Assembly (NCBI GenBank): GCA_009841435.1
Contig: VXLW01000120.1
Location: 1-64,000 of the forward strand
Length of the DNA stretch: 64,000 nt
Direction: 5' to 3'
From: Dehalococcoidia bacterium
GTDB taxonomy: Bacteria > Chloroflexota > Dehalococcoidia > Tepidiformales > Tepidiformaceae
Part shown: piece after piece, positions 44,016 through 47,084 of the stretch
How positions within the stretch are numbered: the stretch's first letter is position 1
Layout of the letters: each line of letters opens with the position of its first letter
Notes under the pieces: generated by a model
Told to the model about the DNA's origin: nothing
Database searches by the model: none
Seen by the model: the letters and a program-made list of their open reading frames with translations, nothing else
Program-made: the position numbers and the translations under genes

Positions 44016-44855
44016 CTACTCGGCGGCGACGGCGGCCTTCTCGTCGGCCATGGCGCCGTTGTCCGCGGCCGGGGCGGACTCGCCCTCCTTGCGGGCCATC
44101 GCGGCCTCAACGCTGGCGCGGAGGGCGGCCATGAGGTCGACGGCGGGCTGCGGCGCGGCCGCCTCGGGGGTCGCGATCTCCTGCCCCTCGAGCTTGGCGT
44201 TGATGATGGTCATCAGGGCTTCGCGGTACTGGTCCTTGTACTTCTCCGGGTCGAACGGCTCCTCGAGCATCTCGATGAGCGCGCGGGCCATCTCCATCTC
44301 CTCCTCAGAGACCTCGTCGACGGCGACGGACTCGCCGGGATCGCGGATCTCGTCGGGGTAGTAGAGCGTCTCGAGGATGAGCTGGTCGCCGCGCGCACGG
44401 AGAGCGCAGAGGCGCTCCTTCGTGCGGATGGCGACCTTGGCGATGGCGATCAGCCCCTTCGCCTGCATGGCGCGGATGAGGAGGGAGTAGGGCTTGATGC
44501 CCGCGTCCTCGGGAGAGAGGTAGTAGGACTTCTCGTAGTGGACGGGGTCGATCTCGGCCTCTTCGACGAAGGCGGTGAGCTCGATGGTGTGCTTGGTGGG
44601 GAGGGGCAGCTTCTCCAGGTCCTCATCGTCGACGATGACGTAGCGGTCCTTGGCGTACTCGTAGCCCTTCACGATCTCCTCGTAGGGCACTTCCTGCTCC
44701 TCGACCGGGTCCCAGCGGAGCATGCGGACGCGGGTGTTCGTGTCGCGGCGGAGCTGGCGAAAGCCGATGTCCTTGCTCTCGGTGGCGGGGAAGAGGCGGA
44801 TGGGGATGCTCACCATGCCGAAGCTGATGACACCCTTCCAGATGGCTCGGGGCAT
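44016..44855 (-). CDS. ku: Non-homologous end-joining protein Ku
   Basis: A 279-residue bacterial Ku homodimer subunit that threads onto DNA ends and recruits LigD. The core beta-barrel runs from 'RAIWKGVISFGMVSIPIRLFPA' (quoted in part) to 'KEYxD-type' linker 'DPEKYKDQYREAL'. 'RWDPVEEQEVPYEEIVKGYEY' replaces the usual Cys-rich bridge. A 60-residue Ala/Glu C-terminal tail is the variable part. It has a CGGAGGCG Shine-Dalgarno. It is first gene of the NHEJ locus, divergent from the riboswitch-controlled gene. Confidence 0.95.
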   Translation of the reverse strand: MPRAIWKGVISFGMVSIPIRLFPATESKDIGFRQLRRDTNTRVRMLRWDPVEEQEVPYEEIVKGYEYAKDRYVIVDDEDLEKLPLPTKHTIELTAFVEEAEIDPVHYEKSYYLSPEDAGIKPYSLLIRAMQAKGLIAIAKVAIRTKERLCALRARGDQLILETLYYPDEIRDPGESVAVDEVSEEEMEMARALIEMLEEPFDPEKYKDQYREALMTIINAKLEGQEIATPEAAAPQPAVDLMAALRASVEAAMARKEGESAPAADNGAMADEKAAVAAE

Positions 44856-44956
44856 TGCACGCCTCCGGGAATGCCAACTTATGTCGGCAGCACCTGTCAG
44901 TGTACGACCACTGGCGCATGTAGGTCAGATCACGGCGGGGGGCTCCATAACGCGTG

Positions 44957-44962
44957 ATAAAC
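44957..44962 (+). promoter_or_regulatory. Candidate -10 box of the riboswitch transcript
   Basis: TAAACT within GTGATAAACT, placing the start of transcription near 44969, about 10 nt before the aptamer. No clear -35. Confidence 0.35.
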
Positions 44963-44978
44963 TGGAAGGGCCGAATCT

Positions 44979-45107
44979 TCGCGCGACTCACTCGGGTCGC
45001 TCGGGGAGCGGGGGACCCATTGTTGGGGTGAAGTGCGCGAGAGCGTACAGGCGATCTCCGACGCCGAACCCGTCAGCTAACCCCGCAGGCGTTCGGAGGC
45101 TCGCGAC
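44979..45107 (+). ncRNA. Cyclic di-AMP riboswitch (ydaO/yuaA aptamer)
   Basis: The conserved core of the ydaO-yuaA class (Rfam RF00379) is present in order and spacing: GAGCGGGGGACCCA, then GGGGTGAA, then CGAACCCGTCAGCTAACC followed directly by CCGCAGGCGT. A short P1 helix can form between TCGCG at 44979-44983 and CGCGA at 45102-45106. These aptamers bind two c-di-AMP molecules and mostly switch genes off. It lies 94 nt upstream of a lysine 2,3-aminomutase-family gene on the same strand and is the content of the only gap above 300 bp. Confidence 0.95.
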
Positions 45108-45201
45108 TACGCGACCAGCCTCCCAGTCGGTGGTTTCGAGCAGAGATCGCCCGCCCCCGCCCCATTGGCGGGGTATACAGTAGCCAGAGGAGGCACCCTT
45201 T
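45108..45201 (+). promoter_or_regulatory. Likely expression platform and ribosome-binding site
   Basis: Contains the hairpin CCCCGCC-ccatt-GGCGGGG (45155-45173) followed by TATAC instead of a T-run, then the Shine-Dalgarno AGAGGAGG 8 nt before the ATG. The hairpin could act as a weak terminator or sequester upstream sequence; which one cannot be decided by eye. Confidence 0.5.
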
Positions 45202-46575
45202 ATGACGAGCACAGTAGTTGACCTCTCCGAGGAATCCCCGGAGCGCGCCAAATACCGCGCGATCACCCTCCACAACATCGCGGGACTGCCCCAGGCCGAG
45301 CGGCTGAGCGACGATCAGCGCTTCGCCATTGACGTGGTGTCCCGCGTGCTGCCGTTCAAGACGAATAATTATGTCGTGAACGAGCTGATCAACTGGGACG
45401 ACGTGCCCAACGACCCGATCTTCACGCTGACGTTCCCGCAGCAGAACATGCTGCGCGACGACCACTTCGACGAGGTGGCGAGGCTGGTCTCGCAGGACGC
45501 TTCCCGGGCCGATATCGACGAGGCGGCAAACCGCATTCGCATGACGCTGAACCCGCATCCCGCGGGGCAGCTCGAGCACAACGTGCCGGTCCTCTACGAG
45601 GAGACCGTCGAGGGGTTGCAGCACAAGTACGAGGAGACGGTTCTCCTCTTCCCGAGCAACGGCCAGACCTGCCATGCGTACTGCACGTTCTGCTTCCGCT
45701 GGCCGCAGTTCGTGGGGCTCGACGACCTGAAGTTCGCGACGAAGCAGGCGAACGGGCTCGTCGCCTACCTGAAAGAGCGGCCGCGCGTGAGCGACGTGCT
45801 GATCACCGGAGGCGACCCGATGGTGATGAAGACGCGGCGCTTCAAGCAGTACATCGACCCGATCCTGGAAGAGGATCCGCCGAACCTGCGGACAATCCGC
45901 ATTGGGACGAAGGCGCTGGGTTACTGGCCGTACCGCTTCACGACGGACGACGACGCCGAGGAGATGCTGGACATCTTCCGGCGCATCACGGCGACCGGGC
46001 GGCACCTCTCGATCATGGCGCACTTCAACCACCCGCGAGAGCTGAGCACGCCGGCGGTGCGCGAGGCGACGGAGCGCATCCGCGAGACGGGCGCGCAGAT
46101 CCGGACGCAGTCGCCGATCATGCGGAACATCAACGACAACTCGGACGCGTGGGCAGAGATGTGGCGCGAGCAGGTGCGGCTCGGAATGATCCCGTACTAC
46201 ATGTTCGTCGCGCGCGACACAGGCGCGAAGCACTTCTTCGAAATCCCGCTGGTGCGGGCGTGGGAGATCTTCCGCGGCGCGTACAACCAGGTCAGCGGCC
46301 TGGCGCGAACGGTGCGCGGGCCGAGCATGTCGGCGGAGCCCGGCAAGGTAGCCGTGAGCGGTCCGGCGGAGGTCGCCGGCCAGAAGGTGCTCACGCTGAG
46401 CTTCCTGCAGGGTCGCGACCCGGACTGGGTCGGGCGCCCATTCTTCGCGCAGTACGACGAGTCGGCGACCTGGCTGAACGAGCTTCGGCCCGCCTTCGGC
46501 GAGGAGAAGTTCTTCTTCGAGGACGAGCTGGCGCATCGCTACGAGGCAGGCATCGGCGCCGGTACGGAAGGCTAA
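45202..46575 (+). CDS. Lysine 2,3-aminomutase-family radical SAM protein
   Basis: A 457-residue KamA-like enzyme. The radical-SAM cluster is in 'CHAYCTFCFRWPQF' (Cys157, 161, 164), with 'VLITGGDPMVM' (GGE-like motif) and 'IRIGTKALGYWPYRFT' following. KamA converts L-lysine to L-beta-lysine using PLP, and beta-lysine is the precursor of the osmolyte N-epsilon-acetyl-beta-lysine. The PLP-lysine motif PGGGGK of classic KamA is not present; the equivalent place reads 'MSAEPGKVAVSG', so the PLP lysine may be kept in a changed context. Control by the upstream c-di-AMP riboswitch and a strong terminator downstream make it a single-gene unit. Confidence 0.85.
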   Translation: MTSTVVDLSEESPERAKYRAITLHNIAGLPQAERLSDDQRFAIDVVSRVLPFKTNNYVVNELINWDDVPNDPIFTLTFPQQNMLRDDHFDEVARLVSQDASRADIDEAANRIRMTLNPHPAGQLEHNVPVLYEETVEGLQHKYEETVLLFPSNGQTCHAYCTFCFRWPQFVGLDDLKFATKQANGLVAYLKERPRVSDVLITGGDPMVMKTRRFKQYIDPILEEDPPNLRTIRIGTKALGYWPYRFTTDDDAEEMLDIFRRITATGRHLSIMAHFNHPRELSTPAVREATERIRETGAQIRTQSPIMRNINDNSDAWAEMWREQVRLGMIPYYMFVARDTGAKHFFEIPLVRAWEIFRGAYNQVSGLARTVRGPSMSAEPGKVAVSGPAEVAGQKVLTLSFLQGRDPDWVGRPFFAQYDESATWLNELRPAFGEEKFFFEDELAHRYEAGIGAGTEG

Positions 46576-46685: not shown

Positions 46686-47084
46686 GTGACCGAGCCTGGA
46701 ACGCACACGGAAGCGGAGCAGGAAGCGCTCCTCGCGAACGAGGGGTTCTACCGTGCGCTCGGCAACTCCGACATGGGGGCGATGGAGCAGGTCTGGGCGC
46801 GCATGGCGCGGGTGACGTGCCTGCACCCCGGCTGGACGCTGCTGACCGGCCGCGAGGACGTGCTGGAGAGCTGGCGCACGATCCTCTCGAACCCGAACCA
46901 GCCGCGCATCGTGGGGGGCGGCGCGAGCGTGAGCGTGCTCGGCGACACGGCGGTCATCCTCTGCCGGGAGGTGGTCTCGGGCAGCCCCCTCTACGCAACG
47001 AACGTGTTCGTGCGCGAGGAGGGGTCGTGGCGGATGACGCACCACCACTCGGGCCCGGTGATGGTTCCGGGTACGGAGGCGTAG
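46686..47084 (+). CDS. SnoaL/NTF2-like protein
   Basis: A 132-residue cone-fold protein with 'LLANEGFYRALGNSDMGAMEQVW' (quoted in part), 'WTLLTGREDVLESWRTIL', and the closing strands 'ATNVFVREEGSWRMTHHHSGPV'. This matches the DUF4440/SnoaL_3 pattern whose members are small enzymes or ligand-binding proteins. The pocket function is unknown. GTG 46686 is favoured by the leaderless promoter; an in-frame GTG at 46656 is the alternative. Confidence 0.8.
   Translation: MTEPGTHTEAEQEALLANEGFYRALGNSDMGAMEQVWARMARVTCLHPGWTLLTGREDVLESWRTILSNPNQPRIVGGGASVSVLGDTAVILCREVVSGSPLYATNVFVREEGSWRMTHHHSGPVMVPGTEA

Follow-up and report, generated by a model that had tools for sequence, protein, structure and literature searches.

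A c-di-AMP riboswitch upstream of a divergent KamA-like gene in Dehalococcoidia

Introduction

In Dehalobacter sp. CF, a tandem Na+/c-di-AMP riboswitch on the lysine 2,3-aminomutase gene ablA was tested in vitro, and an osmolyte rationale was given for placing c-di-AMP control on this gene (White et al. 2022, PMC9337991). In that case c-di-AMP acts as an OFF signal, and the expression platform is in competition with nucleotides of P1 and the pseudoknot (PMC9337991). The general pairing of a c-di-AMP riboswitch with a KamA-family gene is already published, and the initial annotation of the locus described here, which suggested that the combination had not been described, was mistaken on this point (PMC9337991). 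Enzymes related to lysine 2,3-aminomutase can have other substrates. According to the authors of SFLD, glutamate 2,3-aminomutases that were misnamed as lysine enzymes can be recognized by Lys and Asn in place of the lysine-binding Asp pair (PMC3965090). Beta-glutamate is established as a compatible solute, with reports from methanogens and from a small number of bacteria (PMC1224877).

We analyzed 64,000 nucleotides of DNA from a Dehalococcoidia bacterium (the window), in which a c-di-AMP aptamer precedes a KamA-like gene (Table 1). The locus is similar to that of Dehalobacter ablA in that a c-di-AMP aptamer leads a KamA-family gene, osmolyte control is proposed, and an OFF switch with competing strands is predicted. 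In contrast to Dehalobacter ablA, the locus has no Na+ aptamer and no leader terminator, and it is from a different phylum. In addition, its enzyme is far more divergent and does not have the lysine-binding Asp pair. The new elements are that the aptamer is single, that it has long been conserved in families of Chloroflexota with two platforms, and that the enzymes form an unassigned clade with a different predicted substrate. Our reading of the locus, to which we give a probability of roughly 0.6, is that a c-di-AMP OFF switch acts on an enzyme that makes a beta-amino acid solute, with an acidic amino acid as its most likely substrate.

Results and Discussion

The leader contains a full-length c-di-AMP aptamer

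We found that the DNA upstream of the KamA-like gene contains a genuine c-di-AMP (ydaO/yuaA) riboswitch. The initial annotation had proposed one from core motifs, and all four motifs are present in the order that it gave (45006-45019, 45025-45032, 45069-45082 and 45085-45092). It had also named the lack of an RF00379 match above the gathering threshold as one result that would refute the assignment, and the search did not refute it. The match was full length (model positions 1-134) and scored 74.1 bits, compared to a gathering score of 38 bits. The E value of 2.5e-15, which covers both strands and all Rfam families, is far beyond chance. A tRNA was the sole further match to Rfam within the window. 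The P1 helix that had been called plausible is paired in the RF00379 alignment, with one non-standard pair at its end. The riboswitch had been placed at 44979-45201; the aptamer begins ~20 nt earlier and ends at ~45106, and the rest of that interval is the expression platform.

Table 1. Features of the riboswitch and the KamA-like gene. Positions are those of the window.
Feature	Position	Strand	Basis or remark
Putative -10 region GTGATAAACT	44954..44963	+	inferred; immediately 5' of aptamer
c-di-AMP (ydaO/yuaA) riboswitch aptamer	44959..45106	+	RF00379, full model
P1 5' strand	44969..44972	+	cmscan alignment
P1 3' strand	45088..45091	+	cmscan alignment
Pseudoknot 5' strand UCUCCGA	45055..45061	+	pairs with 45093-45099
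Pseudoknot 3' strand UCGGAGG	45093..45099	+	complementary to internal UCUCCGA
Expression platform	45107-45201	+	between aptamer end and ATG
Anti-Shine-Dalgarno GCCUCC	45118..45123	+	complementary to 45095-45100 or Shine-Dalgarno
G+C-rich leader hairpin without U-tract (not an intrinsic terminator)	45155..45173	+	sequence
Shine-Dalgarno GAGGAGG	45187..45193	+	sequence; 8 nt before ATG
457-aa divergent KamA-like radical SAM/PLP protein	45202..46575	+	CxxxCxxC 157-164, R166, R338, R369, S375, K382

The element shares with other ydaO/yuaA riboswitches the full-length match, the conserved core and the 3' strand of the pseudoknot. It differs from them in that the target gene is outside the usual K+ and cell-wall set and in that the platform appears to be translational rather than a terminator. 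Many relatives preserve the pseudoknot pairing through compensated sequences (CUUCCGA/UCGGGAG, UCUCCUUA/UGGGGAGA and CCUAAG/CUUGGG), and in single relatives it is not above the shuffled null.

The aptamer and the ATG are on the same strand and 95 nt apart. On the other side, ku (44016-44855) is on the opposite strand and divergent from the KamA-like gene. Relatives have an AT-rich element at the same place as the putative -10 region (for example, TGGTAAACT in L089 and L091), and a sigma-70 scan gave nothing at this site in the window. Directly 3' of the KamA-like gene is a SnoaL-like open reading frame (46686-47084, + strand). The SnoaL-like open reading frame is on the opposite strand in L007 and is therefore not a conserved operon partner.

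The riboswitch is conserved upstream of the gene in part of the class

A survey of 294 genomes of the class yielded orthologues that are 52-98% identical to the window protein. The surroundings of 50 were scanned, and 30 of them had RF00379 upstream of the gene and on the same strand. In a tree of 72 proteins, the riboswitch was present in 28 of the 29 rows of the clade that contains the window protein (support 96/82). The sole exception, L093, is from the same genus; it has lost the whole aptamer and kept the arrangement of ku and the KamA-like gene. L093 is a natural deletion of the riboswitch and offers a ready comparison for studies of regulation. A second set of five loci (L076, L114, L115, L148 and L150) also has the riboswitch.

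The other 20 of the 50 class orthologues, including L093, had no RF00379 match; orthologues from f14, f44, f78 and f21-g32 were without it. In addition, 12 loci from other phyla were scanned and none had an Rfam element near the gene, including the Na+ riboswitch. Based on these absences, the enzyme works without a c-di-AMP riboswitch in many organisms.

The distance from the riboswitch to the start codon was mostly <150 nt, and was ~300-790 nt in L101, L104, L106 and L112. Very short open reading frames (6-17 codons) or one longer open reading frame lie between the riboswitch and the KamA-like gene in L101, L106 and L112. The short ones are possibly leader peptides.

Computed folds are consistent with an OFF switch

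The window leader contains GGAGGC both in the pseudoknot and in the Shine-Dalgarno region, with GCCUCC standing between the two. That is, the 3' strand of the pseudoknot together with C45100 is a copy of the Shine-Dalgarno sequence. This triad recurs in L006, L087-L090, L092, L101, L106 and L112, and the GCCUCC hexamer is at +31 to +38 in relatives from f1. In such GC-rich leaders, an anti-Shine-Dalgarno hexamer with its target is not improbable by itself (null of 0.37 for the window).

In folding of the window leader, the anti-Shine-Dalgarno made 4.0 bp with the free pseudoknot strand and 5.4 bp with the Shine-Dalgarno when the pseudoknot strands were blocked. Blocking the pseudoknot strands decreased the unpaired fraction of the Shine-Dalgarno from 0.50 to 0.20, compared to 0.48 with a shifted control. 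The same effect was seen in five of the seven genus-level leaders tested (L002, L006, L088, L089 and L090; weakly in L006). There was no effect in L087, L092, or other members of f1, f2 and f21; L091 was not scored. We can reasonably infer that the window leader works by sequestration of the Shine-Dalgarno.

Leaders of the f59 and f70 lineages have a different architecture. The aptamer is directly followed by a G+C-rich hairpin, which in most cases has a T-rich tail, and in L102 a hairpin of this type was called as a terminator. A terminator scan of the window leader found no intrinsic terminator. In nearly all of the f59 and f70 leaders the terminator hairpin was stable whatever was blocked. 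Equilibrium folding was therefore uninformative about competition between the pseudoknot and the terminator, and we set that computation aside. A platform that blocks the Shine-Dalgarno and a terminator-like platform both fit an OFF switch.

Taken together, we propose that the single gene for a radical-SAM/PLP 2,3-aminomutase-like enzyme is under the control of a c-di-AMP OFF riboswitch acting in cis. In a cell without osmotic challenge, c-di-AMP would be high and would stabilize the aptamer and the pseudoknot. The 3' strand of the pseudoknot (UCGGAGGC) would then be unavailable, leaving the anti-Shine-Dalgarno GCCUCC to pair with the Shine-Dalgarno and block translation. A fall in c-di-AMP would let GGAGGC of the strand released from the pseudoknot take GCCUCC, which would free the Shine-Dalgarno and allow the enzyme to be made. 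The enzyme would produce a beta-amino acid that serves as a compatible solute, and its substrate would most likely be acidic (glutamate, giving beta-glutamate) rather than lysine. What the sequences show is the aptamer and where it is conserved, the class of the enzyme's fold, and the altered residues in its substrate site; binding of c-di-AMP, the direction of the switch, the role of the Shine-Dalgarno and the identity of substrate and product are predictions.

It is very improbable that the aptamer is instead vestigial or acts as an ON switch. A vestige, or an ON switch, would fit the congener L093, which kept the gene after losing the aptamer, and the leaders that have no computed switch. 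It would not fit the conservation of the core and the pseudoknot across 60-98% protein identity and in two different leader architectures.

The enzyme is related to KamA and probably does not act on lysine

The initial annotation assigned the protein to the lysine 2,3-aminomutase family. It is KamA-related, and "family" applies only loosely, as the protein reached the cut-off of no KamA-type NCBIfam model, those for EpmB and glutamate 2,3-aminomutase (EAM) included. The scores were 121 bits with TIGR00238 (cut-off 199), 113.2 bits with the AblA model TIGR03820 (cut-off 525.4), and 91.4 bits with the glutamate 2,3-aminomutase model TIGR04368 (cut-off 650). In the sample of the phylum, no glutamate 2,3-aminomutase above the cut-off, sought as a positive control, was found. 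Undoubted AblA proteins from the same class and phylum scored 544-754 bits, and one was fused to AblB. A 741-aa AblA-AblB fusion is encoded at 1378-3600 of L176, from a Dehalococcoidia genome of family f14.

An AlphaFold model of the window protein had a mean pLDDT of 83, and was lower at the cluster loop (159-177). The best PDB match, by both fold and sequence, was lysine 2,3-aminomutase (2a5h), with 19% structural identity. The window protein has the KamA fold and the features of that superfamily: CxxxCxxC, the Arg that binds carboxylate (R134 in lysine 2,3-aminomutase, R166 here), and the PLP Lys (K337 and K382, respectively).

The two proteins differ in the site for the side chain of the substrate. 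In the numbering of lysine 2,3-aminomutase, Asp293 and Asp330 are the residues that bind the lysine side chain. A profile comparison aligned the window protein without gaps to classical KamA proteins around the PYY motif, placing Arg338 at the position of Asp293. Past the point where the computed alignment ends, reading further without gaps puts Ser375 opposite Asp330 and Lys382 opposite the PLP lysine. All 131 homologues have Arg at the first of these positions, and all 131 have Ser, Val or Ile, mostly Ser, at the second. R338, T340, T370, S377 and K382 were invariant in the 131 homologues, and residue 369 was Arg in 130. The cysteines and R166 belonged to the pattern used to retrieve the homologues and are invariant by construction; K382 did not belong to it.

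By the same reasoning that the SFLD authors applied to Lys and Asn, Arg at the position of Asp293 suggests a negatively charged side chain on the substrate. The charge of the site is reversed as in glutamate 2,3-aminomutase (Lys in that enzyme, Arg in the window protein). The second position is different, being Asn in glutamate 2,3-aminomutase and Ser here, and the model score is far off. The protein also falls short of the cut-off for glutamate 2,3-aminomutase, and so the assignment of the substrate is not firm. The evidence agrees better with an acidic substrate, perhaps glutamate (with beta-glutamate as the product), than with lysine, and this branch of enzymes probably does not act on lysine.

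We consider it quite improbable that the protein is a lysine 2,3-aminomutase that has diverged and makes beta-lysine, as the initial annotation had it. In favor of that view, lysine 2,3-aminomutase is the nearest match among solved structures and is also among the best NCBIfam matches, and ablA is the gene in the published riboswitch case. Against this, the AblA model was missed by ~400 bits while real AblA proteins from the class and phylum pass it, and both Asp residues of the lysine side-chain site are changed, one to an invariant Arg. In addition, a search for the AblB-type acetyltransferase (TIGR03827), which had been suggested as a check, found none in the window's own genome, which is 90% complete. 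Based on these three lines of evidence we rejected beta-lysine as the product.

Genes of osmotic physiology adjoin the gene in some other genomes

We surveyed the neighbors of the 80 closest loci in other genomes, including Nitrososphaerota, Bacteroidota, Halomonas, Methylocaldum and Gallionellaceae. A gene for an MscS-type channel was within ~1 kb in 12 of the 80 loci (nine of these divergent, in Nitrososphaerota) and a K+/H+ or Na+/H+ antiporter-type gene was within ~4 kb in eight; neighbors that several loci of one lineage share are not independent cases. In L021, the gene is surrounded by sucrose-phosphate synthase, a sugar-kinase-like gene, MscS and antiporters. Osmotic neighbors were common in Nitrososphaerota and in Gallionellaceae-like loci, and absent from most of the 80. 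They are unrelated to the riboswitch and thus give independent support for an osmotic role of the enzyme. Osmotic control, which the initial annotation had suggested, is likely; its proposed route through beta-lysine is unsupported.

It is possible, but unlikely, that the enzyme acts on another substrate (aspartate, glutamine, or a residue in a protein or peptide, as EpmB does with the lysine of EF-P) and that its role is not osmotic. The failure of the protein to reach the cut-off of any functional model, including EpmB and EAM, would fit such a role, as would the finding that no metabolic partner gene was conserved across phyla. In contrast, c-di-AMP control in Chloroflexota points to osmotic physiology, and so, independently, do the MscS, K+/H+ antiporter and sucrose genes that adjoin the gene in unrelated lineages.

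The question of the enzyme is the more interesting half of the finding. We tentatively suggest, at slightly less than even odds, that an uncharacterized and widespread KamA-like family (Nitrososphaerota, Bacteroidota, Halomonas, Gallionellaceae and Chloroflexota) produces an osmolyte that is an anionic beta-amino acid, probably beta-glutamate, and that its members in Dehalococcoidia have long been under a c-di-AMP riboswitch with two alternative platforms. We found nothing in open-access papers on this clade of enzymes in Nitrososphaerota or marine bacteria. If the suggestion is correct, then many marine and saline microbes, including ammonia-oxidizing archaea, have a candidate enzyme for a beta-amino acid solute, and a likely annotation error (lysine 2,3-aminomutase) would be corrected. 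It would also extend osmocontrol by c-di-AMP riboswitches to solute synthesis in Chloroflexota.

Other c-di-AMP riboswitches in the genome and its relatives

The window's own genome (2.7 Mb) has three copies of RF00379, that is, two besides the one described here. A search for a diadenylate cyclase, also proposed in the initial annotation, found one gene with a DAC domain (142 bits). One of the other copies of RF00379 (L001 1218-1577, - strand; C3) has a gene for a small zinc-ribbon protein as the first gene after it. This protein (~60-75 aa, CPRCRGSMIxERDWYGxYxxCLSCGYVHE) is encoded by the first gene after RF00379 in many Dehalococcoidia, including L118, L128, L130, L137 and L144, and matched no Pfam family above the cut-off. 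The third copy (L003 1501-1965; C57) is before an 87-aa open reading frame with no Pfam match, followed by a dnaX-like gene. In related genomes (L122 and L140), RF00379 is before GT20-family genes of the trehalose-phosphate synthase type, another link to compatible solutes.
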